From: Antedon bifida | Taxonomy: Eukaryota > Echinodermata > Crinoidea > Comatulida > Antedonidae | Reading direction: 5' to 3' | DNA: 64,000 bases | Assembly (NCBI GenBank): GCA_963402885.1 | Contig: OY727097.1 | Coordinates: 31,303,401-31,367,400 of the forward strand | Shown: positions 1,453 to 63,000 of the stretch, in pieces | How positions within the stretch are numbered: position 1 is the stretch's first letter | Layout of the letters: each line of letters begins with the position of its first letter | Notes under the pieces: generated by a model | What the model saw: the letters and a program-made list of their open reading frames with translations, nothing else | Database searches by the model: none | Told to the model about the DNA's origin: nothing | Made by a program: the position numbers and the translations under genes

Positions 1453-4050
1453 ATGGCTGTTGATTTTGAGGTAAAAAGTTCCGGAGACTGGGGTGATGAT
1501 GGAGTAAGCGATTTGCATGCTGTCTTGTTTAATAAGGTATGGTAACAAATTATACAATTAATGTTCAGTGTATTAAAACAACTGGTGAGGTGCATAATAA
1601 TAATCAACTCAATATTTTTAAATAGTAATTAACATACACGTCAAGACAATAACCAATAAATGACAAATTGAGAATATTAAAATTTTATTAAAATCCGACG
1701 TGTATACATTTGTTCTTTGTTTGGTTCTTGCAGGAATCTAATATTGATTCTACTCAAAATATTAAACATAGAAAGAAGTCAAAAAAGGCAAAGGCAAAAA
1801 CAGAGGATAGAAATGGCTGCAAAGAAATTTCCAAATTAGAAATTTCAAGAAAAGGAAAAAAATCCAAGACACAAAACATGATAAATGATTGCAAAACATT
1901 AAAAAGGAAATTGGAAAATGATGATGAACCAGAAGTATCGAAGAAGAAAAAGAGAACATTAAATAAAAAAGTAGAACAAAACATTGAAAATGAGGAAAAT
2001 ACAATATTACTAAATGAAACAAAAAATACAGAGAAAAAAGTTCAGAAGAAGAAGATAAAACGAAAAAAGAATGAGGACGGAGATGGTAGGAAATTAAATG
2101 AAGGAGAAGAAAAACAAAAAGTAGATGATGAAATAAATGAGGCAACAGATCAATTGAAAAAGAACAAAAAAAGAAAAAGAAAAGCAGTGAACAAATTCAA
2201 AACAGAAGAGTTCTTGAATACAAAGAAGTTGTGTGGAAAATTTGTCGACCTTACAGCGCCCCCGTCAAAAGTACTAAAACAAAATCCAAAGGTAAAAAAG
2301 ATTAAAGAAGTAGACAATGAAAAGTCAGTCAGTCAAAAAATGTCTGAAGATGAAAAACATTCTGAAAAGATTAATAAAAAGAAACAAAAGAAAATAAAGC
2401 TTGAAACTGGGAATGAAAGACCAGTAAGTAAGTCACAATTAAGTGATTCTAACTCCAAAGCAATGGAGTCAAGTAAGAAGAAATCTGTATTAGATGCTAA
2501 TACGAAAGAAGTGGATAAGATAAAAAAGAAACCAGTATTTGATGCTAACACAAAAGAAGTGGATACGATAAAAAAGAAACCAGTATTTGATGCTAACACA
2601 AAAGAAGTGGATACGATAAAAAAGAAACCAGTATTTGCTGCTAACTCCAAAGAAGTGGCGTCAAGCAAAAAGAAACCAGTATTAGATCTGAGAACAAAAA
2701 TGGAAAACAAGTTAAAAGGAGCAAGATTCCGATTCATAAATGAGAAGCTATACACCTGTACCGGGGATTCGGCTTTGGAGCTATTTACGGAGGATACGGA
2801 TGCTTTCCAAGTCTACCATGATGGGTTTGTTGAACAGGTGAAATCATGGCCTGTTAATCCTATTGATAAAATGATTGAAGATCTTAAGAACATGTAAGTT
2901 CAAGGCTCAACATTTTAATATTATTGTTGTACACATGAACAACAATCTTGAATTGACAAAATCTAGATATCTCAATTTGATTTAATAATATAACTTTTAT
3001 CATTTATTTTCTACCTTTTTTACTATCAAAATCCAATTTTATCATTTTCAGGCCATCATCAAAGGTTGTTGGTGATTTTGGTTGTGGTGATGCTAAGATA
3101 GCTGAGAGTGTCAAACAAAGTGTGTACTCATTTGACTTGGTCTCAACTAAAGCCAACACCATTGCTTGCAATATGGCCAAAGTAAGTTGGATATTATAGA
3201 TGTTATGAATGATGCTTTCTTCCATTCGTTGAGTGAAAAACTTTTATTTGATAATAGTTATCAAGTTCTAAAACACAAGACAAACTTGACATCTTTTTCA
3301 CTGTTTTCACAGTTCTTATAGGCCTTTGTTTTTAACAAATTCAATACCAATTTATATACCATGATTTTATTAATCTTCGTTTTTTTTATGTTTTGGGGAG
3401 ACAACTTCTTTAAACACTATTTGTGTTAAAATTTGAGGCAGGTTTATTTATTTATTTTTTTTATTAGGTTCCTCTTTCTGATAACACACTGGATGTGGCT
3501 GTATTTTGTTTGTCGTTGATGGGTACAAATTGGATTGACTATCTCAAAGAAGCAAATAGAGTTCTAAAAAACAAGTAAGTCTTATTTCTCTTTCTTTCTC
3601 TTTTTTACATTGATGTAACTAGTAACTAACTTTTTTCTTATCTGCAAAATCTAGTCAAATGTTTTTTTTTTCCTTTTTTCAATTTTAGAGGTATTCTAAA
3701 AATTGCTGAAGTATCAAGTCGATTTCAAAACTTAAAAGCATTTAACCTGGCGATGAAGAGACTTGGATTTTCACAATTAAAAAAGGTAAATGGAAAGAAA
3801 AAAGAAAATTTATTTTTGATTTGATTTTGCTAAGTTATTAACCATATATTAAAGTATACTGTATAATAATTAAACCATGGAATGTTAGTGGTGGTCTTTA
3901 CTAAACATTATTTATTTACTATTTTGTTTTTGATAGGATACTAGCAACAAGTTCTTCATCTCATTTGATTACAAAAAGCAAAGTTTACCAAAAGAGATTT
4001 CAGAAGGTATGAACGAGATTCTCAAACCATGTCTGTATAAAAAAAGATAA
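1453..4050 (+). CDS. RRP8: RRP8, nucleolar rRNA-processing methyltransferase (6 coding exons)
   Basis: Exons 1453-1536, 1734-2893, 3052-3181, 3468-3574, 3689-3785 and 3937-4050 join in phase to 563 codons plus stop. Residues 1-~390 are a very lysine-rich, low-complexity nucleolar-type tail. The C-terminal ~170 residues are the Rossmann methyltransferase of the RRP8 family: the SAM-binding motif [12 protein letters not shown], then [38 protein letters not shown] and KKLGF/FFISFDY-like blocks in family order. RRP8 binds H3K9me2 in the eNoSC silencing complex and methylates A645 (m1A) of 28S rRNA in known animals. The C-terminus [10 protein letters not shown] matches the conserved family ending (PCLYKRR in mammals), which supports the stop at 4048-4050. 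That terminal segment is the founder of the downstream tandem repeat. Confidence 0.93.
2474..2700 (+). repeat. 48-bp coding minisatellite in RRP8 exon 2
   Basis: Four to five tandem 48-base units encode 16-residue repeats with the pattern [16 protein letters not shown]. The middle two units are nearly identical at DNA level and the outer ones degenerate. The unit is a multiple of three, so copy changes keep the frame in the lysine-rich linker. Confidence 0.9.
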
Positions 4051-5167
4051 CAACAAGAGAAGGTATGAACGAGATTCTCAAACCATGTCTGTGTAAAAAA
4101 AGATAAACAACAAGAGAAGGTATGAACGAGATTCTCAAACCATGTCTGTGTAAGAAAAGATAAACAACAACAGAAGGTATGAACGAAATTCTCAAACCAT
4201 GTCTGTATAAAATAGATAACAACTACAGAAGGTATGAACGAGATTATCAAACCATGTCTGTATAAGAAAGATAACAACAAGAGAAGGTATGAACGAGATT
4301 CTCAAACCATGTCTGTATAAAAAAAGATAACAACAAGAGAAGGTATGAACGAGATTCTCAAACCATGTCTGTATAAAAAAAGATAAACAACAAGAGAAGG
4401 TATGAACGAGATTCTCAAACCATGTCTGTATAAGAAAAGATAAACAACAAGAGAAGGTATGAACGAGATTCTCAAACCATGTCTGTATAAAAAAAGATAA
4501 ACAACAAGAGAAGGTATGAACGAGATTCTCAAACCATGTCTGTATAAGAAAAGATAAACAACAAGAGAAGGTATGAACGAGATTCTCAAACCATGTCTGT
4601 ATAAAAAAAGATAAACAACAAGAGAAGGTATGAACGAGATTCTCAAACCATGTCTGTATAAGAAAAGATAACAACAAAAGAAGGTATGAACGAGATTCTC
4701 AAACCATGTCTGTGTAAGAAAAGATAAACAACAAGAGAAGGTATGAACGAGATTATCAAACCATGTCTGTGTAAAAAAAGATAAACAACAAGAGAAGGTA
4801 TGAACGAGATTCTCAAACCATGTCTGTATAAGAAAAGATAAACAACAAGAGAAGGTATGAACGAGATTCTCAAACCATGTCTGTATAAAAAAAGATAAAC
4901 AACAAGAGAAGGTATGAACGAGATTCTCAAACCATGTCTGTATAAGAAAAGATAACAACAAAAGAAGGTATGAACGAGATTCTCAAACCATGTCTGTGTA
5001 AGAAAAGATAAACAACAAGAGAAGGTATGAACGAGATTATCAAACCATGTCTGTATAAAAAAAGATAAACAACAAGAGAAGGTATGAACGAGATTCTCAA
5101 ACCATGTCTGTGTAAGAAAAGATAACAACAAGAGAAGGTATGAACGAGATTCTCAAACCATGTCTGA
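4004..5167 (+). repeat. ~57-bp minisatellite derived from the last RRP8 codons and stop
   Basis: About 21 copies of a 56-57-base unit are arranged head to tail. Each contains GGTATGAACGAGATT, then CTCAAACCATGTCTGT and AAAAGATAA. The first copy is the real end of RRP8 ([14 protein letters not shown], stop); every later copy therefore carries its own copy of the terminal codons and stop codon. The last copy breaks off after CCATGTCTG. Variation between units is mostly CTGTATAA/CTGTGTAA and AAAAAAG/AGAAAAG, with some alternation suggesting higher-order pairs. Confidence 0.95.
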
Positions 5168-5930
5168 AAACAACCACTTTATAATGTCTGTACTTGTTTT
5201 CAAGTACTGTATTATAGTTACAAGGAAAGTATAAAGTGTACTACTTGGCCTCATTGGATCCGCCTATTAGACAAATGTATTGATGTAATCAATTTTATCA
5301 GTTTTTTTAATGCATTCTTTTGCTAACATTGTATCTTGTTTTTATATGTTCATCTTTTACACCATTTATTTTATCTATTGATTTATGCCATTTTGACGAG
5401 TGGGAACCAGGCTTCCAGTCAGTTTTTTTCCACATATTAACAAAAAAATAACTGAAGGAGACACCTTTGGGACCCATGCCCCATTAAGAGGGATTGTGTG
5501 TGTATAAGTGTTAAACATATATTTCTCTTCCTTCGTATCAGATGTCCGTCTGAAAAGTATTGTATTTGCTAAAACTTGTCTCTCGATTGTTTACTAGTGT
5601 GGACAGGTTGTTTGATCCAGTGTTTAAAGCTACAAATAGGGTTTGTTTTAATAAAAACCACTATTTGTAAACAAACAACTCACTGTGTTTTTTGTTTTTA
5701 ATGCACTATTCACCTACCACGTTTATGTTTAAATGCACTGTGTTGCTTTTTTTTTAATTTTCTCACTTGAAGCAAAGAATATATATCACTCTTTGCTTGA
5801 AGTCACGTTGTCTCTAGAGAGTATTCAGTTGCATGCCTTGAGGTCACACACACAGCACATTAAAGTTCAAAATTGACCATTTTTAAATTAAAGAACTATC
5901 TTTGATTTGTATGTATTTTTGGGATCCACT
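5168..5930. other. Downstream flank of RRP8 repeat, no gene seen
   Basis: AT-rich intergenic sequence. Possible polyadenylation and UTR sequence for RRP8 may lie here, but nothing decisive is visible. No conserved reading frame. Confidence 0.4.
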
Positions 5931-6075
5931 AGGACGTAACGCAAGGACGTACGGACAACGCAAGTGAGCTGACCAATGACAAGCAACAGTTCGAAAAATC
6001 CATTGTGTGTCATTGGTCAAATTACTTGCGTTGCTCTTACGTCCTTGCGTTACGTTCTAGTGGAAACCAGCTTAA
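5931..6075. mobile_element. Foldback MITE, family 1 (ACGCAACGCAAGGACG type)
   Basis: The two halves are inverted copies: ACTAGGACGTAACGCAAGG with GACCAATGACAAGC on the left, and TGTCATTGGTCAAATTAC with CCTTGCGTTACGTTCTAGT on the right. The same ends and the GACCAATGACAAG core recur at many other places in the window, always as a foldback of roughly 150 bp. No coding capacity. Confidence 0.85.
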
Positions 6076-6287
6076 GCGGAAAACCGCGTAGCTTGTCCCA
6101 CGTACAATCTGTACTCAGCTGAAACCGTCCGATCCGCTCCGCGCTTTGTGTAAATGGTCATAAGGAATATAACAATGATTCTGTATTTGTATTACTGTTA
6201 CGGCACGTTTGTGTAAATTGGATGGCCTTTACAACAAGTTGAATTACGTTTGCGAGGTACCCAAAGCATAAAAAAAACGGTGTTCGG

Positions 6288-9885: not shown

Positions 9886-11185
9886 GAACATTTTTATTAA
9901 TGATTAATATTAATGCCTTTGTGACTCATTCTAAATAACTCTTTTAATTAAGTTTTGAAATTGTCAGAAATAATTGTGTAGTTTTAATGAACTTTCACCC
10001 AAATGTATTTCTAAAAACGTTTGAATTTTGTGAAAAGCAAAAGTAATTTATGTTTGCATTAGGTTTCAGAAGCGTGATCACTAACAAATTAATCATCTCC
10101 ACTTGTTTTTATAAATAATTGTTTAAGATCTTCTTGATAAAAACAAGTTTCAATACAAATATTTTGATACAATGTTGATGATATAATTATTCCATCATCT
10201 GCTATTATTATGCTATTACTATATTTAGGAAAATACATCTGCATAGCCTTATAGTAAATTTATCTGACTACCTATCTTTTGGGGTTTTTTTCTAATTCGA
10301 TATGTGTATATTGTTTAATACGTAGAAAAATATAAAAACTAGAAGTCAAAGGTTTTTGAATATAAGAACACAATTCTTTGAATACTGTACACTTTGGATA
10401 AACATTGTACACAAAGGAATGATGTAAATGCATTGTAATGCATTACTGTACATAATAATAATAACCTGTAGCTTTACAGTTATTGAGCCTAACAGTCTTG
10501 ATGCGCATGCTCGTATGTTTCTAAGCATGCGCAGAATGACTTGTTAGGCCTACTCATTGGCGCGTAGTTTTGAGGCGCGTAGTTTTTACATTATAGTAAT
10601 CTAATTCTCAACTTAAATTTAATGCTTACAGAACATTTCTTAATTCATTATATTAAAGTATTTTGTATTCAGTTTTCGGCGTTGAGATCACCAATGTATA
10701 TTGCTATGTTTATTTTATAACAATCTAAATATAGATTAAAATAGATGAACATTGGAAAATCGCTTCTGTAGACAAAGCCTAACAATGATACATAACAATT
10801 ACATGTAATTTAATTTTCTTTTCTTTTCGCTTCTAGAAAATATAGATTAAATATTATACATGAAAATTAGAAGAAGCTTCTAGAAAATGTATTTAGAATT
10901 TATTATCTATACCTGTAAATTGTTTACACGACTTATAACTAACTATGCTTAGATGAAAACAGGAAGATTGCTTCGGCAAATATAGACTGGTTATTAAATA
11001 TTGTCGTTGATTGTTATCATTTTCAATTTAATAATGAAAAACCGAAACTATAATGGTTTTCTATTAACTTTCTATTGCACAAATAAAGAATATAACTGAT
11101 AACACATTAGCACGAGTTAGTTTCTTATCTGAACCAGGCAGCAGACAAAGTATTAAACATTACATTACATTTTTATGTTTTAAAC
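9886..11185. other. Spacer between the two otopetrin genes
   Basis: AT-rich, with the 3' flank of otopetrin a and the upstream region of otopetrin b. It contains one TAGGCCTA octamer (10545-10552) followed by two GGCGCGTAGTTTT direct repeats (about 10560-10587). No gene seen. Confidence 0.5.
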
Positions 11186-12982
11186 ATGTCTGCCGTTAAT
11201 TTCGCATTGATATCACCCGACACAACGAGAAGCCGGACAAGTATTTCAATTGGAAATGTGTTGGTGCAGTTACTGCGAACAGGATTAAGAAGTAACGAAG
11301 ATAATCCAACACCAGAAAGCGAGGATGGATGCTATGCTTCTCTTCTCCTTTTTATTTGGCTCTCTTCTTTGTCTTTTGCAATGAGTTTTTCCTCATTGAC
11401 GACAGGTTTCAAGTTATCGGTCAGTACGGCACAGATTTTATCGCTCGTTCTACTAATGTTTAATTCCTTCAACATTTTATATTTTATCAAAACTAAAAGC
11501 AAGTGGACAGAACCCTCAGCCGGCGCCACATTGTATGAAATGCATGACAACACTACGGAGCATGACGTCATTGAACTACGTAATATGTCAGATGTTTCTC
11601 CGCCTTTTCAAGTGTCCACAACATGCGGCAACAAGAAACACACATCGTCAAACCTGTCATTGTTCGGTGTTTTCATCTTTGCTAGTTTCTCTCTGATCAT
11701 GTTCACAGCAGACATTATACAAGTTGCAACATGTTTACCTTTCTTTAACAACGAATACAGTAATGATTTATATATACAACAGGACATAATCTACATCGTT
11801 TTTCGAACCTTTTCGAACATGTATATCTGTATTAAAATTGCCTTCATGATTTGCTTCAAAAATAGTAAATTTGTAAGTAGTGTGTGGTTCTGCTATTCGA
11901 TCTTGCTATATGTGGCTTTGGATGTTGTGTACCTGATGGAAGGTTTAATGTATACTGCTTTTGTTCGTCTGAATATCACCGCTCCATGGGACTCACGTGA
12001 CCAACCAGATACTCCGACATCGCGTTACGATTCGCTCTGCTATAACAAAACTCGAGCGTATGATGACGTTGTGTTCGCCATCCAGAACGTCTTCTATCCG
12101 TTTACTATAGAATTTTATATTCTGTCAATTGGAATATTTCTTCATTATTGGTTTAATGCAAGTTTGCCAACTAAACGGAACAGAATCGTAAATGGGTATG
12201 GTGCTGTCGTTAACGATGATTCAGTAACGAATCGTACGGTCGATGAGGAGCAACAAGATGAAATGGTTCACTACTCATCCACAATTCCATTAGCTATTAT
12301 CATGTCTCTGCTTTTACTTGGATCATCTATGTTTCTACAATTTGACCAATTGTTAACAGTTGTTTACATTTATCATACAATTAGGATTATCTACAAAGTG
12401 TTGATGATCATACCTGTGGTATTGGGTGTTGGATATTTGTCGTATTTATCATACGATCGAAAACCATCTCTCGACGGAAGCGAGAAGCTGCTGTTTGGCA
12501 CAGTCACTGCGACGTTTTTGACTACTGCGTTCACAGCTCTGACGTCATCATTGCTTCTGCATCAGTTTAACATCAAACCAGCTGCCGATGTACCGGTATC
12601 CGGTAAAGATGGTCATGTGAACGTGACAGTTGAGGATTCTGTTATCTGCTTGATGTACTCTATCATTAATTACTTTCAAGTTGCAATGCAGACATGTTTC
12701 TTCATTTCTGCTCGTCGTCGTCGGCACCCATTTACCGCACACTTTAGTACCGTAAGCCAGCGGCGGCTTCGCGAATGCTTCTTATACCTTGCTATTTGCA
12801 ATGCTTTTATTCTGCTTTCGGGTACGTTTAAACTTATAAGCGTGGAAGTAACGAACGTCTGGTATTTTGGTGAGCGCCAATGGAGTATCATTGAAAGCTT
12901 GCTCTTTCCAATCGAAGAGCTGTACTACTTCCATTCTGTTTTACTTTGCAGTGAACTGTATCTGTTCTTTAAGGTTGAATAG
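11186..12982 (+). CDS. OTOP-like: Otopetrin-like proton channel b (single exon)
   Basis: A 598-codon frame paralogous to the gene at 8050 and in the same orientation. It shares the otopetrin blocks: YPFTIEFYILSIGIFLHYWF, the WFCYSILLYVALDVVYLMEG helix, and the C-terminal LFPIEELYYFHSVLLCSELY. A stretch of about 87 bases near the 5' end (11261-11347) is almost identical to the paralogue, although the proteins diverge elsewhere. Predicted function is a proton-selective membrane channel. The last 16 codons including the stop have been amplified downstream. Two adjacent intronless copies indicate local tandem duplication of an intronless ancestor. Confidence 0.87.
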   Translation: MSAVNFALISPDTTRSRTSISIGNVLVQLLRTGLRSNEDNPTPESEDGCYASLLLFIWLSSLSFAMSFSSLTTGFKLSVSTAQILSLVLLMFNSFNILYFIKTKSKWTEPSAGATLYEMHDNTTEHDVIELRNMSDVSPPFQVSTTCGNKKHTSSNLSLFGVFIFASFSLIMFTADIIQVATCLPFFNNEYSNDLYIQQDIIYIVFRTFSNMYICIKIAFMICFKNSKFVSSVWFCYSILLYVALDVVYLMEGLMYTAFVRLNITAPWDSRDQPDTPTSRYDSLCYNKTRAYDDVVFAIQNVFYPFTIEFYILSIGIFLHYWFNASLPTKRNRIVNGYGAVVNDDSVTNRTVDEEQQDEMVHYSSTIPLAIIMSLLLLGSSMFLQFDQLLTVVYIYHTIRIIYKVLMIIPVVLGVGYLSYLSYDRKPSLDGSEKLLFGTVTATFLTTAFTALTSSLLLHQFNIKPAADVPVSGKDGHVNVTVEDSVICLMYSIINYFQVAMQTCFFISARRRRHPFTAHFSTVSQRRLRECFLYLAICNAFILLSGTFKLISVEVTNVWYFGERQWSIIESLLFPIEELYYFHSVLLCSELYLFFKVE

Positions 12983-13318
12983 GCTGTTTTACTTTGCAGT
13001 GAACTGTATCTGTTCTTTAAGGTTGAATAGGCTGTTTTACTTTGCAGTGAACTGTATCTGTTCTTTAAGGTTGAATAGGCTGTTTTACTTTGCAGTGAAC
13101 TGTATCTGTTCTTTAAGGTTGAATAGGCTGTTTTACTTTGCAGTGAACTGTATCTGTTCTTTAAGGTTGAATAGGCTGTTTTACTTTGCAGTGAACTGTA
13201 TCTGTTCTTTAAGGTTGAATAGGCTGTTTTACTTTGCAGTGAACTGTATCTGTTCTTTAAGGTTGAATAGGCTGTTTTACTTTGCAGTGAACTGTATCTG
13301 TTCTTTAAGGTTGAATAG
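12935..13318 (+). repeat. 48-bp minisatellite from the end of otopetrin b
   Basis: Eight consecutive 48-base units. The first is the terminal coding segment SVLLCSELYLFFKVE plus TAG; the next seven are near-perfect copies (the first base differs only in the coding copy). Because 48 is a multiple of three, every copy repeats the same frame and the same stop. The array ends in a partial GCTGTTT. Confidence 0.97.
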
Positions 13319-13344
13319 GCTGTTTGTGTACAGTATACAAACTG

Positions 13345-14096
13345 GAAAGCCACTCCGAGAGTGCATACCCCCGCCTACTGTAATGCTTGGTTCCCACAGA
13401 GACGCAACACAAGGACGTAACGCAACGTAAGTGAATTGACCAATGACAAGCGAAGTAATAGACAGTTAGCAATCGCAAGCGAATAAGCCATCGCTTGTGA
13501 TTGGTCAATTGCGTTGCGTCGCTAGTGGGAACCACGCTTAATGTGATTTAGGCTGATTTCACTACAAACATGTGTATGCGAGTTTGGTGTAAAGGTTATG
13601 TAACCAGCCTTTCAACTAACAATAGTTTCAGTTGACTAACAATAGAACAGGAACGCCAAAATCAAACGGGTGAATTTGAAAAGAATTATGTTTTTAAAAC
13701 TACTCGTATCAAAAACCTGTACATAAAATCAAATTATGTTTTAAAATTACAAATCAGAAATTATAACTCTTGCCTCTTGCAAAAATGAAGTGTTTTAGAT
13801 AAGTAGTTCTCGAGAAAATGCAATTTCAGTTTACTAATTGTTACTTAACTTTAAGACTGCTCGTCGGCTTTTGAAAATTCTGTCCTATCTTTTAACACTA
13901 GCAGGTCTAAAAAATAATACTAAAAAGTGGTCCAGAATTGGGGCCGTGGTCCTGATTGCCATTAATGGAGTGATCCTTCACCACATATCTATCTGTAGTT
14001 TAATTTTTTGGTAAAGATCTTGCAATAACTTTTAGTAATCCTGCTAACAAACAGACACACGCGATCGATTACATACCTCCTTGGCGGAGGTACATA
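13345..14096. mobile_element. Dispersed repeat with CCTCCTTGGCGGAGGTA end (copy 1)
   Basis: Begins GAAAGCCACTCCGAGAGTGC and ends CCTCCTTGGCGGAGGTAC. The same order of blocks (GTGATTTAGGCT, TTTCACTACAA, GTATGCGAGTTTGGTGTAA, CTCGAGAAAATGCAATTTC, the AAAGTGGTCCAGAATTGGG segment) is found at 35246-35948, about 85-90 percent alike by eye. A family-1 MITE is inserted in this copy. No coding capacity recognised. Confidence 0.8.
13386..13540. mobile_element. Family-1 foldback MITE nested in dispersed repeat
   Basis: Ends GCTTGGTTCCCAC and GTGGGAACCACGCTTA are inverted. The inner arms carry GAATTGACCAATGACAAGCG and CGCTTGTGATTGGTCAATT. It interrupts the dispersed repeat between its CTACTGTAA and TGTGATTTAGGCT blocks. 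Confidence 0.88.
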
Positions 14097-21313: not shown

Positions 21314-22873
21314 CTATCCTTTAATAGCAGACTTTTCGTCGTCAATACTGCTATAGTTGACATGCATAGCAGCACTACCAACATTTCTGGAAAAAAAACA
21401 AAGTTTTTATAACATTATAAATATTTTTTAAGTAGTTTTAACAAATTGTAAAACGTTGGGCGTATTTCCAAAATGTATAAATATTTTTATTATGACCATT
21501 CTCAGGGTATTTGTCAATTCCGTTTTCAAAGGGCTGAATGTACATTCGTCCAAAAAAAGTCACGTAGTTAAATTTTTTTTAAATCAAATATCTTTAATGA
21601 TATAATTAATGTGATGATGGTGATCATAATGGTCTATGTTACGTTAAAACGGTTAAGATTACGGTTAATTAATCATGATGATAACAATGATGATGTTGAT
21701 TAATCATGCAGATGACAAAACGATTATATTCAAAGGTTTTCTGATGATGATATGCTAATATAATGACCTTTACCTTTTATGCCTAGTATAAAATAATAGT
21801 GCCATATAAATGAAGCTAATTGTCACCACCACTGCAGTAATAACGTTTAGGGCAATGAATCCTGGCTTTGACACCAACACTTTTCCTTTCAAAGCGATAC
21901 CGCAACTCTGTTCTTCTGTATAAGGTCCTTTACAGTTTGTACCTGCGCATTCGGACTCGCGTACAACATCACGTGACCGTACGCGATTCGTTGCGTTCTC
22001 ACACGATGACCATTCGGTCCAGCTACTCGGTTCACAATCTATGTTTTTGCAATCACAGCACTGGCCACTGTATGTGGTCTTCAGACAATCACAACCTTTT
22101 GTTGTCAGTATACCTCCGTTGTAACAAACACGATTGCACGACTGTTCTTCAGTAGTTGGTTTGGAGCATTGTCCACATACCTCTAGAACATTTCGAACTC
22201 TAAATTGGAATCCACTCGCGCCGCATTCCTGTGTACATTCAGACCAAACACCCCAATCACTGTACTCACAGCCACTACATCCGTCCTTACATTCTTGTTT
22301 TTGAGTGGTTGGTTCTGAGCAAGTTCCGCATACTTTAAGTACGTCCCGAACTCTAAATTGAGTACCAGACTTACCGCATTCTGGTGAGTAACACTCCGAC
22401 CAAACACCCCAATCACTGTACTCACAGCCACTACATCCGTCCTTACATTCTTGTTTTTGAGTGGTTGGTTCTGAGCAAGTTCCGCATACTTTAAGTACGT
22501 CCCGAACTCTAAATTGAGTACCAGACTTACCGCATTCTGGTGAGTAACACTCCGACCAAACACCCCAATCACTGTACTCACAGCCACTACATGGTACATT
22601 ACATGATTGTTCTTCACTGGTAGGTTCAGGGCACACATGCGGTCCACATCCATCCATCTGGAGTACGTTCCTAACCCTCAATTGAGTTCCTGAAGTCTTA
22701 CCGCATTCTGACGAGTAGCACGCAGACCATGGACCCCAATCACTGTACGTACATCCACTTTTATGTTCAGACTTTGTCTTACGTATTTTCTCGTAACCCA
22801 CTCCTCCGAAAAAAAGTCCCAAACCAGCTACTACTACGAACAGGAATATTATTGCAATTGCTTTACCGCCCAT
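21314..22873 (-). CDS. TSP1-repeat transmembrane protein, copy A (2 coding exons)
   Basis: Exon 22873-21774 plus tail exon 21386-21314 gives about 390 residues. The ATG at 22873 (MGGKAIAI) is used; a longer frame upstream would start at TTG. Order: hydrophobic N-terminus (about residues 4-24), five TSP1 modules (cores DWGPWSACYSSECG, DWGVWSECYSPECG twice, DWGVWSECTQECG and SWTEWSSC), one EGF-like hook (CYNGG...YSGQCC) before the last TSP1, then a transmembrane helix (ALNVITAVVVTISFIYMALL) and YTRHKR. The apparent stop is AGGTAA formed by the donor AG|GTAAAG; splicing in phase 2 to the acceptor TTCCAG gives the tail NVGSAAMHVNYSSIDDEKSA plus IKG and stop. Modules 2 and 3 are identical 52-residue (156-bp) units, a recent internal duplication absent from copies B and C. 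Function unknown; the layout is receptor-like. Confidence 0.85.
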
Positions 22874-23228
22874 CTTCAATCTAGTATGTGACTACTGCAG
22901 AACGTCGACGTCGATCGATTGATTAGAAATAAATAGGAATTTCCAAAATCGATAACAATCATTTTCTTTGAGTAGTCTTTTGTACAGACGTACTGTGGTT
23001 GAATATTCGACCGTGCTCGACCTACCAATTTGGTATATTTCATATACAGAGGGGTTTTAATAACGAGAGAACAAACGAGCACAAAAGCGAGCAAGATGAA
23101 AGCCTGAACAAAAAGATAAGGCCTACAAATTAAAACACCACAAATATGTATTTAATATCATATAGCTTCGAATTTACAAGTTTAAGAAACTATCAGGGTG
23201 TTAAAAATATAACGATATAGGTACTGTA
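22874..23228. promoter_or_regulatory. Head-to-head upstream region of copy A and goliath fragment
   Basis: This ~355-bp region is repeated at 25996-26350 and, with a few changes, at 32011-32381. In the last place it separates a TSP1 start (minus) from the intact goliath gene (plus), so it is a candidate bidirectional promoter. No classical core element identified. Confidence 0.5.
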
Positions 23229-24602: not shown

Positions 24603-25995
24603 CTATCCTATAAAAGCAGACTTTTCGTCAATACTGCTATAGTTGACATGCGTAGCAGCACTACCAACATTTCTGAAAAAAAAAACAATTATAAATATTT
24701 TTTAAGTAGTTTTAACAAATTGTAAAACGTTGGGCGTATTTCCAAAATGTATAAATATTTTTATTATGACCATTCTCAGGGTATTTGTCAATTCCATTTT
24801 CAAAGGGCTGAATGTACATTCGTCCAAAAAAAGTCAGGTAGTTTAATTTTACATTATGATATCAAATATCTTTAATGATATAATCAATGTGATGATGGTG
24901 ATCATAATGGTCTATGTTGCGTTAAAACGGTTAAGATTACGGTTAATTAATCATGACGATAACAATGATGATGTTGATTAATCATGCAGATGACAAAACA
25001 ATTATATTCAAAGGTTTTCTGATGATGATATGCTAATATAATGACCTTTACCTTTTATGCCTAGTATAAAATAATAGTGCCATATAAATGAAGCTAATTG
25101 TCACCACCACTGCAGTAATAACGTTTAGGGCAATGAATCCTGGCTTTGACACCAACACTTTTCCTTTCAAAGCGATACCGCAACTCTGCTCTTCTGTATA
25201 AGGTCCTTTACAGTTTGTACCTGCGCATTCGGACTCGCGTACAACATCACGTGACCGTACGCGATTCGTTGCGTTCTCACACGATGACCATTCGGTCCAG
25301 CTACTCAGTTCACAATCTATGTTTTTGCAATCACAGCACTGGCCACTGTATGTGGTCTTCAGACAATCACAACCTTTTGTTGTCAGTATACCTCCGTTGT
25401 AACAAACACGATTGCACGACTGTTCTTCAGTAGTTGGTTTGGAGCATTGTCCACATACCTCTAGAATATTTCGAACTCTAAATTGGAATCCACTCGCGCC
25501 GCATTCCTGTGTACATTCAGACCAAACACCCCAATCACTGTACTCACAGCCACTACATCCGTCCTTACATTCTTGTTTTTGAGTGGTTGGTTCTGAGCAA
25601 GTTCCGCATACTTTAAGTACGTCCCGAACTCTAAATTGAGTACCAGACTTACCGCATTCTGGTGAGTAACACTCCGACCAAACACCCCAATCACTGTACT
25701 CACAGCCACTACATGGTACATTACATGATTGTTCTTCACTGGTAGGTTCAGGGCACACATGCGGTCCACATCCATCCATCTGGAGTACGTTCCTAACCCT
25801 CAATTGAGTTCCTGAAGTCTTACCGCATTCTGACGAGTAGCACGCAGACCATGGACCCCAATCACTGTACGTACATCCACTTTTATGTTCAGACTTTGTC
25901 TTACGTATTTTCTCGTAACCCACTCCTCCGAAAAAAAGTCCCAACCCAGCTACTACTACGAACAGGAATATTATTGCAATTGCTTTACCGTCCAT
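24603..25995 (-). CDS. TSP1-repeat transmembrane protein, copy B (2 coding exons)
   Basis: Exon 25995-25052 plus tail exon 24672-24603 gives about 337 residues. It has the same layout as copy A but with four TSP1 modules (one DWGVWSECYSPECG unit fewer). The signal/anchor segment, EGF-like hook, transmembrane helix and phase-2 donor AG|GTAAAG are conserved. The tail reads NVGSAATHVNYSSIDEKSAF plus IG and stop. It differs from copy A by an in-frame loss of one Asp codon and a few substitutions, which supports the tail as genuinely coding. The ATG at 25995 (MDGKAIAI) is used. Immediate neighbours are the duplicated head-to-head region and goliath exon fragment. Confidence 0.85.
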
Positions 25996-26350
25996 CTTCA
26001 ATCTAGTATGTGACTACTGCAGAACGTCGACGTCGATCGATTGATTAGAAATAAATAGGAATTTCCAAAATCGATAACAATCATTTTCTTTGAGTAGTCT
26101 TTTGTACAGACGTACTGTGGTTGAATATTCGACCGTGCTCGACCTACCAATTTGGTATATTTCATATACAGAGGGGTTTTAATAACGAGAGAACAAACGA
26201 GCACAAAAGCGAGCAAGATGAAAGCCTGAACAAAAAGATAAGGCCTACAAATTAAAACACCACAAATATGTATTTAATATCATATAGCTTCGAATTTACA
26301 AGTTTAAGAAACTATCAGGGTGTTAAAAATATAACGATATAGGTACTGTA
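25996..26350. promoter_or_regulatory. Head-to-head upstream region of copy B and goliath fragment
   Basis: Duplicate of the region at 22874-23228; same length and nearly identical sequence. Confidence 0.45.
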
Positions 26351-27305: not shown

Positions 27306-29063
27306 TAATAAATATAATACTAATATAATCATTTAAGTAAATGGAATTAAGTATACCGACCTAACAACGTACTCTCAAGTTATACAGTACTGATTAACAG
27401 CTTTTGTAAAATACAAAATTTAAAGTTGTAGCGTTTATATTCTCAATATTGCCCCATTAAATGCTTTTCTTAGCTTATTCAGTCTCGAGTCATTTCGTTT
27501 CACAGTTAATTGTCAATTTTATACAATAAATATTTGTTTCTCAGTGTTTAACTTTTACATAATTTCAGTCTCATCAATCCTTTTCCGTTGTACGCACGTC
27601 ACACGTTCATAAAAACATGCCCATAATGCCAACGAACATGCGCAGAGTGCGATTGTTAGATGCGCGCAATAGCTGTGTTTTTGCCTTCGTTGTACGTAAA
27701 TACATCCAAACAGAAGGAAGGTCGCTATCCTATAAAAGCAGACTTTTCGTCAATACTGCTATAGTTGACATGCGTAGCAGCACTACCAACATTTCTGAAA
27801 AAAAAAACAATTATAAATATTTTTTAAGTAGTTTTAACAAATTGTAAAACGTTGGGCGTATTTCCAAAATGTATAAATATTTTTATTATGACCATTCTCA
27901 GGGTATTTGTCAATTCCATTTTCAAAGGGCTGAATGTACATTCGTCCAAAAAAAGTCAGGTAGTTTAATTTTACATTATGATATCAAATATCTTTAATGA
28001 TATAATCAATGTGATGATGGTGATCATAATGGTCTATGTTGCGTTAAAACGGTTAAGATTACGGTTAATTAATCATGACGATAACAATGATGATGTTGAT
28101 TAATCATGCAGATGACAAAACAATTATATTCAAAGGTTTTCTGATGATGATATGCTAATATAATGACCTTTACCTTTTATGCCTAGTATAAAATAATAGT
28201 GCCATATAAATGAAGCTAATTGTCACCACCACTGCAGTAATAACGTTTAGGGCAATGAATCCTGGCTTTGACACCAACACTTTTCCTTTCAAAGCGATAC
28301 CGCAACTCTGCTCTTCTGTATAAGGTCCTTTACAGTTTGTACCTGCGCATTCGGACTCGCGTACAACATCACGTGACCGTACGCGATTCGTTGCGTTCTC
28401 ACACGATGACCATTCGGTCCAGCTACTCAGTTCACAATCTATGTTTTTGCAATCACAGCACTGGCCACTGTATGTGGTCTTCAGACAATCACAACCTTTT
28501 GTTGTCAGTATACCTCCGTTGTAACAAACACGATTGCACGACTGTTCTTCAGTAGTTGGTTTGGAGCATTGTCCACATACCTCTAGAACATTTCGAACTC
28601 TAAATTGGAATCCACTCGCGCCGCATTCCTGTGTACATTCAGACCAAACACCCCAATCACTGTACTCACAGCCACTACATCCGTCCTTACATTCTTGTTT
28701 TTGAGTGGTTGGTTCTGAGCAAGTTCCGCATACTTTAAGTACGTCCCGAACTCTAAATTGAGTACCAGACTTACCGCATTCTGGTGAGTAACACTCCGAC
28801 CAAACACCCCAATCACTGTACTCACAGCCACTACATGGTACATTACATGATTGTTCTTCACTGGTAGGTTCAGGGCACACATGCGGTCCACATCCATCCA
28901 TCTGGAGTACGTTCCTAACCCTCAATTGAGTTCCTGAAGTCTTACCGCATTCTGACGAGTAGCACGCAGACCATGGACCCCAATCACTGTACGTACATCC
29001 ACTTTTATGTTCAGACTTTGTCTTACGTATTTTCTCGTAACCCACTCCTCCGAAAAAAAGTCC

Positions 29064-31948
29064 GGGATCAGGTGCCGTTTTCGGCCACCTCGACTTGTAT
29101 GGACTATACCATTATTATGATAGGGGTGTGGTGTATTATGTTTTATGTAGAAGGGTGTCTACTGAATGGGAAGACAATACAATCGTTCTGTTATGTAACC
29201 TACAGTACAAACTACAAGGAACAATACAGAACATCAAAAACTAGCAAGCATGTACTTTTTATAAGGCATGTTATTATATTAGGTACTGTGCCAAGATTTT
29301 GTAACAATAGTACTTTTATTAACTAGGCCTATAAGTAGGTATACTGACTTACTATATATAAAAACTAAACTAAACACTACGGTATAATCAAAATTAAAAC
29401 ATATTAAATACTATGTTATGCCTATCTGGATTTAAACACATTAAATTTTAGTACAATCGGATTCGAAATTAGAAAATCTTAAATACTACAATACAATCGG
29501 AACATATGAATCTCTTGAGCAACGAAATAGCTAAATTGCCCCAACACACTCCACCGGGACATGAATACCACTGATTTCGCATCGTGATATTCTACAAAAC
29601 ACTTGATTTTCATGTTCCCACCTAAATATCTCGGCTATTATAAATCGGATTGTTTTGGATAGTAGCTCAAAATAAACTGTAGACAATACTGAACATTATG
29701 ATATATGTTTGAAATTGTAAAGTTACAAAAAGTATGTGTCATTTTACGTTTTAAAACTTACCATCCATTGCCCGCTGACAGTGTGAGGTCAATTTTTTAC
29801 CTATTTTCTAAAGCACCACAGTGTTTTATTTGCAATTTAAGATCACTTGTAGGCCATCAATCATTTTGGATAGTTTCTTAAAAGAAAGCTGAATATTCAT
29901 AGATTCCTTACATACTTTTCTTATGAGCATTGGCTTAAAATAGACTGTGTCAAAATAGCAAAATCTATTTTGAAAAAATCTAAAAAATCCTCAAAAAGGC
30001 GGCAAAATTCAAATAGGGTTTGCCTGTGTTATCAAGTCTTCACTTGACAGACCGTTGGATTGTAGCTAAGTTTGGGGTTAATTTTTTCATTATATAATTG
30101 TAAGTAGCATTTTAATTTTTATATCATTCTAATGTTTGATATATAAGGAACAATTGTTAGTGTTATTTAGTTCTATATGTCGTGTTTTATATTCACAATT
30201 GCCAAATTAAGACACCTATGTTTTAATGATAGCGAGCTGGGATCTACCATTTTCACTCGGGTAATGGTTATGTTTATCTTTCTGTGACCTGTTTTGTTTA
30301 ATGAATAGATGGTAATTATTACAAAGTCTGGAAATGTTCATACTATACTAGTTTATGTCATTTTAATTTTTTGGTTAAAAAATATAATCAATAATTGTGG
30401 AAATTATGTAGTCATAATGGTTGACCCCCCTATATAATGGACGATGACAAGACTTGGGTTGCATGAACTTGGTATGAACTTATAAGTAGATAAACAGCTC
30501 AATAGGTACATATTAAAAATCACTGTTTGGTTGCAAAATTTGCACCAAGAGATTCATATGTAAAACATGTTACCTACAATACAACTAAATACAGTACAAT
30601 CGGAATCAAAACATATTAAAAACTACAGTACAATCGGAATCAAAACATATTAAAAACTACAGTACAATCGGAATTAAAACATGTTAAACTACAAAACAAC
30701 TAAACTAAATATCACAATCGGTATTAAAAAATCTTAAATACTACAGTACAATCGATATTAAAATATCCTAATACTACATTACAATCGGTTAAATTACCTA
30801 CACTCTATAATATTGTGAAATATGTAAAAGAATGTTGGCAAAAGCATTCTAATCGGCCCAATCCTATCGGTAGATAAATCATATTTTTTATTTGCAAAGG
30901 ATAAATCCCAACAACATGGATTTGAACCCAAGAACCTGGCATCGGTAGACAAGCATAATTGAAGATTCATTGACATAATTATATGTTTTTTGTTTGTTTT
31001 ACCTGATACGTTTACATTTAATGCTAAATGTAAAACGAATTGTAGATACAGAAACAAAAGGGTAACAGATTCATTGACATAATTATATGTTTATTTGTTT
31101 TACTGATTACCTGATACATTTACATTTAAAATGAAACGAATGAAGATACAAAAAAAAAATGGTAACAGATTCATTAACGTAATTATATGTTTATTTGTTT
31201 TACTGATTACCTGATACATTTACATTTAGTAGTGTAGTAGTAGTAGTGTTGACTAAAGCTTAAATGGGTGGACATGTTGATCATATAGTTAGAAGTTAAA
31301 TACAAGGCTGTAGGCCTACTGCTTGAGGAAACATTTAAAAACGTGTTTAAAACGTTTTAGAAAAACCAAACCTAAAAACATGCAATGTCAAACATTTCGA
31401 GTACCTTTAACAAACGATCTGTGTTTTCTGGGAACAAAATGGTACAGATTCATTGATAAAAAATTATAATGTTTATTTGTTTTACTGATTACCTAATAAT
31501 CAGTATGTGATAGATCTTATTAAATGTACTACTGTCATCTTTGTTAAATATGTACTACTGTGTTATCGTTAGATAAATTATATTTTTTTATTTGTAACTG
31601 AAAAAAAACCTAATTTCTTTATACTTTCTGTATCTATAAATCCGTAAAAATATTCAATATCCACCTTAGGGAATCCACCTAATATCCATATTAAGGAAGG
31701 ATACATAAATATTATATAGAAATAAAGAGCCATAATATACTGTATTAACTTGAAAACTGAAATTAGGTGCAGGGCGTAGGTGTTTTTCCTTTGTTGCCGA
31801 AACATAATGCACTAAACAAAAGAACAAAAGCAGCAGTATTTTAACACATTAACACACTCAATTAATAAATGGGACACCCCTATTTTCCCATCTTTTTATA
31901 ATGGTATAGTCCATACAAGTCGAGGTGGCCGAAAACGGCACCTGATCC
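29064..31948. mobile_element. 2.9-kb non-autonomous DNA transposon with ~50-bp TIRs and 8-bp target duplication
   Basis: Terminal inverted repeats of about 50 bp begin GGATCAGGTGCCGTTTTCGG and read through GACTTGTATGGACTATACC in both orientations; the left end has one extra G. The flanking 8 bp AAAAGTCC are present on both sides (29056-29063 and 31949-31956) but once in copies A and B. Internally there are reiterated blocks (ACAGTACAATCGGAATCAAA with AACATATTAAAAACT; GATTCATTGACATAATTATA with TGTTTATTTGTTTTACTGAT), but no long reading frame, so it would need a transposase in trans. Eight-bp duplications fit hAT, P or Merlin superfamilies; the termini do not let me choose. Confidence 0.9.
30590..30790. 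repeat. Internal ~33-bp subrepeats of the transposon
   Basis: Five to six degenerate copies of TACAGTACAATCGGAATCAA followed by AACATATTAAAAACT. Similar ACAATCGG units also occur near the left end (29440-29500). Confidence 0.75.
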
Positions 31949-32381: not shown

Positions 32382-35300
32382 ATGATTTGTATTCGTTCCA
32401 AGATGGTAAGAGGCGTTCAGAATGTTGTGATGATACTGCTCTGTGTTCTTTGGCCGCCGCAGCCGAAACGATCAACAACAACAAGGTCTAGGCCTAGTAG
32501 TAGTAGGCCTAGTCGTGTGGGCATTGTCAGTGGTAAAATACCACTTTTATTAACTGAGCAAATGAGAAGATCGGGATTGAGTTGGGCTTTAATTTTACTA
32601 ATTTTACTTGGATTTGCTTTTCCGTCAGTCTCATGTACATATGACTCGTACGCAAGTAATCGGAATAATGAGAAAAACGTTAATGTAACATATATTGAGG
32701 AAGTTCAAAAAGTGAACAAAACTCATATTATTCAATCTGCTAAATATCTTATACCACCAAATCTTCCAAAGCATGTGTTTGGTATTCTTATACAACCGAG
32801 TGAAAAAAAAGGTTGTAAAAATGAAGATTATTACAAAAATGGAAAGTTAAAATTACCACCAAATAATGAACAGTGGATTGCTTTAGTTACGGACGGAAAA
32901 TGTCCTAACTCCCAGAATAGTAACAACATCAAAAACTTTGAAGTAAAAAGTGCGGTAGCGCAAGCGCTGAACGCATCCGCTTTGTTAGTATACGGTTCTC
33001 AAAGCTTCCACAACAATCGTCAAAGTATCAGTAAGTTTTAACTTTTTTTGTTCATGACACTTTTTAAACCATTCATCATTCACTAATCAATTGCCAACAA
33101 CATCTTCCATTTAATATCAACATTATCTTACATCATCAAGTCTATCAACATCATCTTACATCATCAAGTCTATCAACATCATCTTACATCATCAAGTCTA
33201 TCAACATCATCTTACATCATCAAGTCTATCAACATCATCTTATGCACTTGTCAATTGTATGACCCACTATACGACCCCCGGGAGACGTGCGTCATGGGTG
33301 CGTCATTTACAAATAATTACTGACGCAGGGGTGCGTCAAAAAACCTAGATGGTACGTCACATCAATGAACAAGGTGTGTCAATGTCCGTCACTTACTTTA
33401 CCACCCACCATATCATAAACAACATGGTAACAGTGCGTCAAAATGGGTGCGTCATGGTCACCTAAAGGTAAGTCACATTTTTGACGCACGGGTGCGTCAT
33501 GGTATTCAATGGTATGACGCACATCGGACAAATGACGCACCTCTCCCGGGGGTCGTATAGTGGGTCATACAATTGACAAGTGCATTACATCATCAAGTCT
33601 ATCAACATCATCTTACATCATCAAGTCTATCAACATCATCATACATCATTAAGTCTATCAACATCATCTTACATCATCAAGTCTATCAACATCATCATAC
33701 ATCATCAAGTCTATCAACATCATCTTACATCATCAAGTCTATCAACATCATCTTACATCATCAAGTCTATCAACATCATCTTACATCATCAAGTCTATCA
33801 ACATCATCATACATCATCAAGTCTATCAACATTATCTTACATCATTAAGTCTATCAACATCATCTAGTCTATCAACATCATCTTACATCATCAAGTATAT
33901 CAACATCATCAAGTCTATCAACATCATCTTACATCATCAAGTCTATCAACATCATCTTACATCATCAAGTCTATCAACATCATCTTACATCATCAAGTCT
34001 ATCAACATCATCTTACATCATCAAGTCTATCAACATCATCTTACATCATCAAGTCTATCAACATCATCTTACATCATCAAGTCTATCAACATCATCTTAC
34101 ATCATCAAGTCTATCAACATCATCTTACATCATCAAGTCTATCAACATCATCTTACATCATCAAGTCTCTCAACATCATCTTACATCACCACGTCTATCA
34201 ACATCATCTTACATCGTCAAGTCTATCAACATCATCTTACATCATCAAGTCTATCAACATCATCTTACATCATCAAGTCTATCAACATCATCTTACATAA
34301 TCAAGTCTATCAACATCATCTTACATCATCAAGTCTCTCAACATCATCTTACATCACCACGTCTATCAACATCATCAAGTCTATCAACATCATCTTACAT
34401 CATCAAGTCTATCAACATCATCTTACATCATCAAGTCTATCAACATCATCTTACATAATCAAGTCTATCAACATCATCTTACATCATCAAGTCTATCAAC
34501 ATCATCTTACATCATTAAGTCTATCAACATCATCTTATATCATCAAGTCTATCAACATCATATTACATAATCAAGTCTATCAACATCATCTTACATCATC
34601 AAGTCTATCAACATCATCTAGTCTATCAACATCATCTTACATCATCAAGTCTATCAACATCATCTTACATCATCAAGTCTATCAACATCATCAAGTCTAT
34701 CAACATCATCTTACTATACAAACCTCCAAATAATTATAGATAATGTAATGATCTATCAATTCAGATATCATAGAGACATGAGGTTTGTTTAGAAACATAA
34801 TTATCAACTTTAATTTCAGATTTGCAAATTCCAGTAATTCAATTATCGAAGAGTGAGGGTGAGGTGATTTCTAAAAAAATTTCTGAAGATGATAAGAGGA
34901 TATGGGTTGATTTGCAGCCGTCATTGAATTCTAAAGTTGCAACTCCAATACGAAAGTCTTCAGTATTATTTGTGTCTATTTCTTTTATTGTTTTGATGGT
35001 CATATCGTTAGCTTGGCTTGTGTTTTATTATGTACAGAGATTCCGATTTGCACAAGCTAGAGACAGGACACAGGTATGCAACTTTCATTTATGTTACAGA
35101 TATAGATAAGGCAGAACTAGATTTTTGTTGGAGGGTGATCAGGTCTATCATTTATACATGCATATTGCGATTCGGAAAAAAAAAAAAATCTCTCAACAAC
35201 ATTTAAGTCTACTAGATTTTAAACCAGATTAATAATTAAATAGAAAGCCACTCCGAGAGTGCATACCTCCGTCTACTGTAAAATTCTCCTACATAAGATT

Positions 35301-42572: not shown

Positions 42573-42740
42573 CTTAAGCTCTGTCTACACTATCAAACTG
42601 TATGTGAGAAAAAAATGTGATGTGCACAAATATAGACATGATGATGTCATATCACTACCATATTTGAGCATATCGCTACCATATTTGGGCACATCGCACT
42701 TTTGTAAAACTAGTTTAATAGTGTGTAGACAGAGCTTTAT
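42573..42740. mobile_element. Family-2 foldback MITE
   Basis: Ends TTAAGCTCTGTCTACACTAT and TAGTGTGTAGACAGAGCTTTA, with TATCACTACCATATTTGAGC inside. Confidence 0.85.
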
Positions 42741-60011: not shown

Positions 60012-63000
60012 ATGAGTTATGAAAGATTTGAAGATGACGATGAGGTGGACATTCCACAAATCGCAGTCACCTTTTCGAATGACCTGTCTAATGGAACCGA
60101 TGTAGTGCATTTACAAGGGATTGGTGATGTACAAAGCAATTCTAGCGCTGTCTTACAGCTGTCTGACCACCAGGAAACACTAAATGAGATTCAACCAAAG
60201 AAAGAACTCACAACAATAAAGTATATGTTATCTTTAATAATCATTTATTTGCAAACTACACCTTTGAGGTGTTGGTTCAATATTGTGTTGTGGAATTCCC
60301 TACCAATTTCAATCTATGTAATTTAGCCTAATTTTAAGATCTAGTAAGACTTTTCTTCCAACGAACTTTTTCATTTATCTAACAATTTTGCCCTTTCCTG
60401 TTTTACTTCAATGATGTACAGATTGAGGGCCTCACTATTATGCTAGGCCTATATAACTAATATTTATCTTTCAATTATTGTGCCGTCTGGTATTGTAACC
60501 TCTCATACTTCGGTCGAACTTTGTACATTTTATTTACAATTTATTTTCACAGAAAAGCCCGGCTAAAAGCAAAGTGGTTTACAGAGCATCTGTATGTCAG
60601 GTAACGTGTAATTTATAGATTGTTGTAATCTTTCTAACAGTTTATTAAGATTAACACACAGACTTCTTTTAAAACGATAATTATTCGGTTAGGCCTAATT
60701 ATTTTCATGAATATCAAGCTGTAAATGTAATAACCAAAGAATATCTTAATTTTAATTTTAAAATATTGTTTAAAACATTGTTTAATTTGACAGACTTTTT
60801 GGTGTGTTTCTGGTTATTTTCGATATTATTATCGTGATTGTTGACATAGTAGAAGACCCAGTAAAGGGACCGTATCTTACAACATATGACATCATATCTC
60901 TCACCATACTCAGCTACTTTGTAATGGAGTTGTCATTACGTATGTTTGCTAAAGGGTGAGAACTTACATTATTAATATCTATCATTATTTATCAAAAATG
61001 TGACGGTGCCCATATATGGACATGATAATGTCATATCTCTACCATATTTGGTCATATCACTACTATATTTGGTCATATCACTACCGTATTTGTGTGTAAA
61101 CAGAGCTTAAGAAGACCTTCATTTTCATATCATATCACTATCATCAACAACATTATAATCATCATTTCTTCATTACACATATTAAAACCAGAAATAATGT
61201 TTCTTATATTCACTTTTTTCTGTACATTCAATGCATATTTTGTTTTGTTTCAGAAAGAAATTTTTCTACAGCACTATCGATTTAATTGATACATTTATTG
61301 TATTTTTAACGGGTTCAGTTACTATTGTCTATGTATCAGTTGATTTCTCTGGAGATGTGGGCCAGTATTACAAGTAAGTAGACATTATTTGTTTGTTGAT
61401 CACCTTTTTTCAGAAAATAACTTCTATATTTAATACACAATACAAAAACGACGATACAACAATTTAACTACACTGATCACACACTAAAATTGAATTTTCT
61501 TTCATTTATCGTACAATCTAGTATTTTTTAAATATTTTTATTAAACTTTGTTTAATGAGGGTGACTTAAAACAGCCGATGCTGACATGCATGAGGCCCTC
61601 AACAGGAACGATACAAATAATTTTATAGTATTTAAATTAATACTTGTTGTGAGAATGAGAATACGATGTTTCGTGAGATATGCTTTATTGGTGAGACGGG
61701 TTTGCTGACTATATTAGCACATTTTAATATTTCTCCCTCAATATTATATAAATGTAATGTTACTTTGGTGTGTTTCAGATTAGTGGTAGTGTGTCGTCTG
61801 ATGAGGGTGTTCTTGTTCGTACGTCTTTTAACTGAGCGGGATCATGTGAACAAGGCATCAAGACGAATGGTAAATTAAACTTCTTGTTTTATAATAATAC
61901 AATAAACTGACCATCCAATCATACACAAGATAAGAACTCTTAGTTAACAAACAAAAAACAACTTATGATTCACTGTTATGCCTACTTGTTTACTGATATA
62001 TGCAAAATATTTATCTCCTTTGCCTCGTAATTAATATCTTTAGGTTTCGGAAAATAAAAGAAGATATCGTGAAGAAGGATTTGACTTGGATCTTACATAC
62101 ATAACAGGTTTGGCAATTATAGATTTCTTACATGTTAACACAATATGTACACAGCAGCTTGAATCTTGACTTTTATGATTGAAATGTTCAAACTATAGTT
62201 TTATTTTCTCAATAGAGCATCACATTCTGGGAAATGTTGTATCAATGGTTATTGTTGGATGTAAACATCCTAAAATGTGTTTCTGTTTCAGATCGTATTA
62301 TAGCTACATCATTCCCATCTTGAAACATCATTAAGACATCATGAAATGTTCAACATGTGGTTTTCATTTTTTTTTAAACTACTCTTCGAAATATTGTAAT
62401 AGTAAGTTTAAAATGTGTTTCTGTTTCAGATCGTATAATAGCTACATCATTCCCATCGTCTGGTAAACAAAAATTGTACAGAAATTCTATTAAAGAAGTT
62501 TCCAAGTTTTTAGAATTCAAACACTGCAACCATTACAAAGTCTACAATCTTTGCAGTAAGTGAAAACACAATTTGTACGGCTAATATCGGTATTGGACGT
62601 TTTTAACAAAGCTTCTTGGAAAATGTTGTTTGTAAAGAAGTCATAATAAAACAATAATGTATTGTATTTCTGTTTTAGGTGAGAAACATTACGATGAATC
62701 TTATTTCCAATTTCGGGTTCAACGAGTCATGATAGATGATCATAATGTGCCACATCTAGCGTGAGTTGGACCCTTTATTGATTAAGTCAACTAATTGTCA
62801 ATGTATTTTATTTCTAAAACTGCAAGACTTTGAAGTACCGCTTAGCTCTCATCTTTATCGCATCTCAATATGATGATAAATTGACTATACAAATTATGTT
62901 TAATTTGTTTTCAGAGAACTACAGAAGTTCACTGCTAATGCCAAAGAATGGATTGAAAAAGACCCGAAGAATTTAATTGTGGTGCATTGTAAAGGTGGAA

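Follow-up and report, generated by a model that had tools for sequence, protein, structure and literature searches.

Among described systems, the 40-bp VNTR of SLC6A3/DAT1, which is named in PMC8096271, comes close to the array at the 3' end of the RRP8 gene presented here: both consist of tandem units of tens of base pairs, and both lie in a 3' UTR, for RRP8 a predicted one. The main text of PMC8096271 describes human minisatellite VNTRs that overlap exons, as does the RRP8 array, which is known here from one assembly; the term 'stop codon' is absent from that text. Among echinoderms, a likewise repeat-rich gene region is that of the sea urchin Sp185/333 genes with their short tandem repeats, as described in PMC5103432, although these are clustered immune genes, unlike RRP8. 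In the titles and abstract openings of the minisatellite, VNTR and tandem-repeat literature, with few subscription journals among them, no description of a minisatellite that spans a stop codon was found. Three further papers were set aside, PMC4915136 being concerned with PCR primers, PMC3477136 with stop codons engineered into tolA of E. coli, and PMC3449122 giving a general treatment.

The genome is represented by one assembly of 315.6 Mb in 27 contigs, and the window is the whole stretch of 64,000 nucleotides analysed here, positions 31303401-31367400 of contig C10. The animal is taken to be an echinoderm, as the mitochondrial COX1 on contig C27 aligned best with solved COX1 under genetic code 9, that of echinoderms and flatworms (811.9 bits, against 801.2 under code 24 and 787.0 under code 5). 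RRP8 is an enzyme that modifies ribosomal RNA. Its coding region occupies 1453..4050 of the plus strand in six exons (1453-1536, 1734-2893, 3052-3181, 3468-3574, 3689-3785 and 3937-4050) with GT-AG introns, and the joined frame is open from the ATG at 1453 to the TAA at 4048-4050, giving a predicted protein of 563 aa that terminates in PCLYKKR. Methyltransf_8 (Pfam PF05148) was matched over its whole length (1-219 of 219, E 1.6e-84) at residues 346-563, and the solved chain 2zfu, whose database entry is titled 'Cerebral protein 1' and which we take to be human RRP8, aligned with the protein to its last residue (E 2.2e-66), its own end being QPCLYKRR. A genome search with PF05148 gave three matches, all inside RRP8, and no other PF05148 gene was found in the 315.6 Mb. 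RRP8 is a single intact gene, complete to the C-terminal end of the domain, and not a decayed copy. The final exon from 3937 to 4050 on the plus strand, ending with PCLYKKR and TAA, had been put forward in the original prediction and is confirmed by the joined six-exon reading; the description of PCLYKKR as family-conserved agrees with the Methyltransf_8 profile and with 2zfu, a basis of one profile and one relative. RRP8 carries two arrays with different units, one spanning the stop (4002-5166) and one in exon 2, where an in-frame coding minisatellite of 48/96 bp at 2444-2699 encodes a varied 16-residue repeat.

TRF placed the stop-spanning array at 4002-5166 with a period of 57, 20.6 copies, 95% matches and a score of 2085, and for the same array also reported a 284-bp period, equal to five units, with a score of 2147; the maximum score at periods of at least 10 in 200 dinucleotide shuffles of 3938-5667 was 71. 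Direct parsing yielded 21 unit starts from 4004, spaced 57 bp apart in 13 cases, 56 bp in five and 55 bp in two, so that the array has 20 full units and one truncated unit, and it begins 46 bp before the stop. A head-to-tail array of 57 bp in 20.6 copies is a minisatellite in the usual sense of units of roughly 10-100 bp in many copies. Unit 1 (4004..4059, plus strand, 56 bp) contains the 15 C-terminal codons of RRP8, the stop and then about 10 bases, and is the sole unit read as protein (15 residues and the stop). Units 2-20 (4060..5134, plus strand) lie beyond the stop in presumed 3' UTR, and unit 21 (5135..5166, plus strand) is truncated after CCATGTCTG. Among the 20 full units, 9 of 57 alignment columns are variable, and the downstream units show changes of Tyr to Cys and Leu to Ile together with frame-shifting deletions, as expected of copies that are not translated. 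TRF, direct parsing and the shuffle control thus bear out the tandem array that had been reported over the terminal codons and stop; the figure of about 21 copies at 56-57 bp holds for the number of unit starts and misses the two 55-bp spacings.

A genome search with the unit, which skips very common words, returned 20 matches, every one inside the RRP8 array and none elsewhere in the 315.6 Mb, indicating that the array derives from RRP8 and not the reverse. In addition, the unit carries terminal codons that align to 2zfu, and the proposed growth of the array from the RRP8 end is well supported by these comparisons. Units five apart differed on average by 1.47, where permutation gave a mean of 2.56, and this was the lowest value among separations 1-10. 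At separation 5, values as low occurred in 0 of 20000 permutations, and the minimum over all ten separations was as low in 6 of 20000. This similarity points to the copying of five-unit blocks as part of array growth, and identical units were found at 12 and 17, 13 and 18, and 1 and 6. The block pattern is that of a minisatellite, with patterned variants from internal duplication, and unit variation patterned in this way argues against an assembly artefact.

Growth probably began with a tandem duplication of ~57 bp, through slippage or unequal exchange, that took in the stop with the 15 codons before it and about 10 bases after it. With translation terminating in copy one, the extra copy would have done no harm and so been tolerated. 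Further rounds of slippage or unequal exchange, partly in the five-unit blocks observed here, would have produced the 20 full units, with the later copies, most likely within the 3' UTR, drifting free of coding constraint. Very probably the array is a minisatellite of the ordinary sort that happened to arise over the stop of RRP8, and no function need be invoked for it.

Contrary to a purely passive account, the codons of unit 1 could exchange with the array. That the last 15 codons of RRP8 belong to an exchanging array, by which the terminus is homogenised and sometimes replaced by untranslated copies, is rather unlikely, if worth keeping in view; the identity of units 1 and 6 fits exchange and fits simple block duplication equally. 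If such exchange did cross the stop, a protein terminus would evolve in concert with its untranslated copies, and individuals might carry ends in PCLYKKR, in PCLCKKR or extended by 15 residues.

The sole AATAAA within 4001-6200, a likely poly(A) signal, lies beyond the array at 5650..5655 on the plus strand (ATTAAA occurs at 5859 and 5887), so that the RRP8 message probably includes the whole array as predicted 3' UTR. Through its copy number, the array might then tune the end or stability of the RRP8 mRNA, by way of TATAAA as a weak poly(A) hexamer, a cryptic donor AAG/GTATGA or a binding site in each unit, and TATAAA does occur at 8 places within the array, while AAGGTATGAACGA, present in 21 of 21 units, comes near the RRP8 intron 1 donor AAG/GTATGG. 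However, the codons that the unit carries (LYK, EGM) already give rise to TATAAA and AAG/GTATGA, which are therefore expected without any function. Rfam gave no match at the gathering threshold over 3900-5700, and the RNA fold of 4051-4350 is unremarkable (z = -1.63, matched or bettered by 8 of 200 shuffles). Regulation of this kind is improbable, and the ordinary minisatellite remains the preferred explanation.

RRP8 was also read in silico with each of the 21 units placed first. The C-terminus was identical from 11 of the starting units and of unchanged length with one or two substitutions from 7; with unit 4 or 5 first (2 of 21), deletions in an A-run cost the stop and the protein ended 15 residues later, and the truncated unit 21 (1 of 21) gave the end PCLKTTTL. 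The original prediction had rightly anticipated a different C-terminus from the last unit, cut after CCATGTCTG. It had also held that the 57-bp period keeps the frame and that the protein is safe whichever unit comes first, and both statements fail: the stop lies inside unit 1, so unit length has no bearing on the frame under in-register exchange, and 10 of 21 starting units alter the C-terminus. The protection of the C-terminus is partial and a by-product of the likeness among copies. A frame-preserving period retained as a safeguard of that terminus, with any unit first, would accord with the 57 bp found in 13 of 20 spacings and with the normal stop position seen when 18 of 21 units are placed first. 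We hold it to be very improbable all the same: the frame is set by the junction of exon and unit rather than by the period, the altered proteins include two 15-residue extensions and one new end, and the other stop-spanning arrays, presented below, have units of 48, 28 and 21 bp, one of them not divisible by three.

A satellite or mobile sequence inserted at the RRP8 end, or captured by it, would suit a window rich in tandem and dispersed repeats, but the confinement of 20 of 20 genome matches of the unit to the RRP8 array, in a search that passes over very common words, and the alignment of its codons to the relative 2zfu make such an origin highly implausible. That the minus strand of the array codes for a repeat protein, with ORFs of 226, 169, 168 and 110 aa lying over it, is scarcely credible, since a 57-bp unit is by chance free of stops in two of its three minus-strand frames, so that long ORFs would come from any such array, and the frame is switched by the 55- and 56-bp units.

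A second stop-spanning minisatellite (12936..13325, plus strand, 48 bp × 8.1 copies, 100% matches) was found 8 kb downstream of RRP8, at an otopetrin-like gene with an ORF at 11111-12982, whose TAG at 12980-12982 lies inside the array. As at RRP8, the unit holds the last codons and the stop; in contrast to RRP8, the 48-bp unit, within which VLLCSELYLFFKVE and the TAG lie, is wholly coding plus stop, and its 8.1 copies match perfectly. The gene is labelled otopetrin-like because hmmscan of the ORF returned no Pfam family, yet 11999-12922 scores as otopetrin in the genome profile search (56.1 bits, above the cut-off), and the end of the ORF resembles that of the neighbour L017, which hmmscan calls an otopetrin. 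L017 stops several residues beyond the end of this ORF. Two paralogs, L019 and L022, stop at the equivalent place (HSVLLCSELYLAFRPK, then the stop) with the array absent, suggesting that, as at RRP8, the array of the otopetrin-like gene is probably younger than its stop.

That one window should hold two stop-spanning arrays less than 10 kb apart suggests more than chance. The wider survey covered seven protein families and 133 gene ends, each of which was followed past the family match as far as the stop; L091, taken at first for a stop in an array, was dropped when its reading proved to have entered an array-bearing intron, leaving 132. The stop lay within an array at 3 of the 132 ends. These are L020, which is the otopetrin-like gene of the window; L095, an SLC25 carrier on another contig with a stop-spanning array of 28 bp × 4.8; and L014, of the otopetrin family on another contig, where the array is 21 bp × 6.0 at 2821-2947 of that locus and the gene end comes after an Asp-rich simple-repeat tail, so that this case is less secure than the other two. 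At L070, L079, L083 and L086, an earlier in-frame stop occurs just inside the match, and an array is absent there. RRP8 itself stands outside the 132, and doubtful ends such as L081, L082, L096 and L156 stayed in the denominator. Many of the sampled ends are paralogs, some of them near-identical (L150/L152 and L015/L016), and independence is lacking. Moreover, the otopetrins were sampled after the window case had been noticed (2/131 when that gene is removed).

Array density was taken from 100 kb of reference sequence, L057-L061 plus window 14001-64000, which is not random, as the window and its neighbours supply 90 kb of it and otopetrin genes were the reason for choosing L061. It holds 51 arrays that occupy 7-12% of the sequence, and the fraction lying in a first unit on a given strand is 1.4% for strong arrays and 1.9% for all arrays. 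The expectation is 1.9-2.6 stops in arrays per 132 ends against the 3 observed (P for at least 3 = 0.29-0.47). The observed fraction has a 95% interval of 0.5-6.5%, which admits about a threefold excess over expectation. The first batch gave 3/92 (expected 1.3-1.8, P 0.14-0.27) and the added batch, 40 ends taken after the 3/92 was already known, gave 0/40. These figures rest on whole-sequence coordinates; a null from random 480-base windows (4.9% in the first unit, by which 3/93 would fall short of expectation) was set aside, since in windows cut in this way mid-array points pass for first units. With a reference mostly near the window and close paralogs among the ends, the test is a rough one for an excess of arrays at stops. 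On this rough test no excess of stop-spanning arrays was detected, and the interval allows modest enrichment; a propensity of arrays to begin at stops is unsupported by the 132 gene ends, again with a wide interval. The frequency of arrays over stops is close to that predicted from array density, with a wide error.

Other repeats were noticed in the window and among the sampled loci. At L155, a Ras-family gene, a 16-bp unit in 5.1 copies with 100% matches lies directly 3' of the stop. A dispersed 21-bp unit like CATATCACTACCATATTTGGG forms short arrays at several sites and on either strand (window 42648-42695 and 61030-61092, L058 333-437, L092 and L156), and a unit of this type occurs once within the reading of a Ras-like tail. 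A 28-bp unit, TATCAACATCATCTTACATCATCAAGTC, forms a short array at 33115-33242 and a long one at 33585-34692, both behind an ORF ending at 33041 that bears a weak likeness to a PA domain, scoring 21.7 bits against a cut-off of 23.9. Three very similar minus-strand ORFs (21770-22891, 25048-26013 and 28170-29111) contain, as judged by eye, thrombospondin-type-1-like repeats, and the first exceeds the second by 52 residues, equal to one 156-bp repeat. Short inverted repeats with related ends, MITE-like by eye, lie at about 5930-6070 and 13385-13540 of the window and past the stop of L019, so that one follows soon after the 12936-13325 array and another the stop of this paralog; their ends show words such as CGTAACG, CAAGGACGT and CTAGTGGGAACC.

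With a stop inside an array, one copy is translated and under selection while its many near-identical neighbours are not, and a stop-spanning array thereby offers a natural test of minisatellite drift and exchange. Where arrays make up several percent of the sequence, a stop-spanning minisatellite is to be expected at roughly 1-2 gene ends per hundred, and arrays found at the expected density call for no adaptive reading without further evidence. The RRP8 array is confirmed and tidy, and its mechanism is ordinary: in a minisatellite-rich genome, one array straddled a stop by chance. Compared with 3' UTR VNTRs of the DAT1 type, RRP8 differs in that the founding unit contains the stop together with 15 codons, and the first unit of the array is translated.
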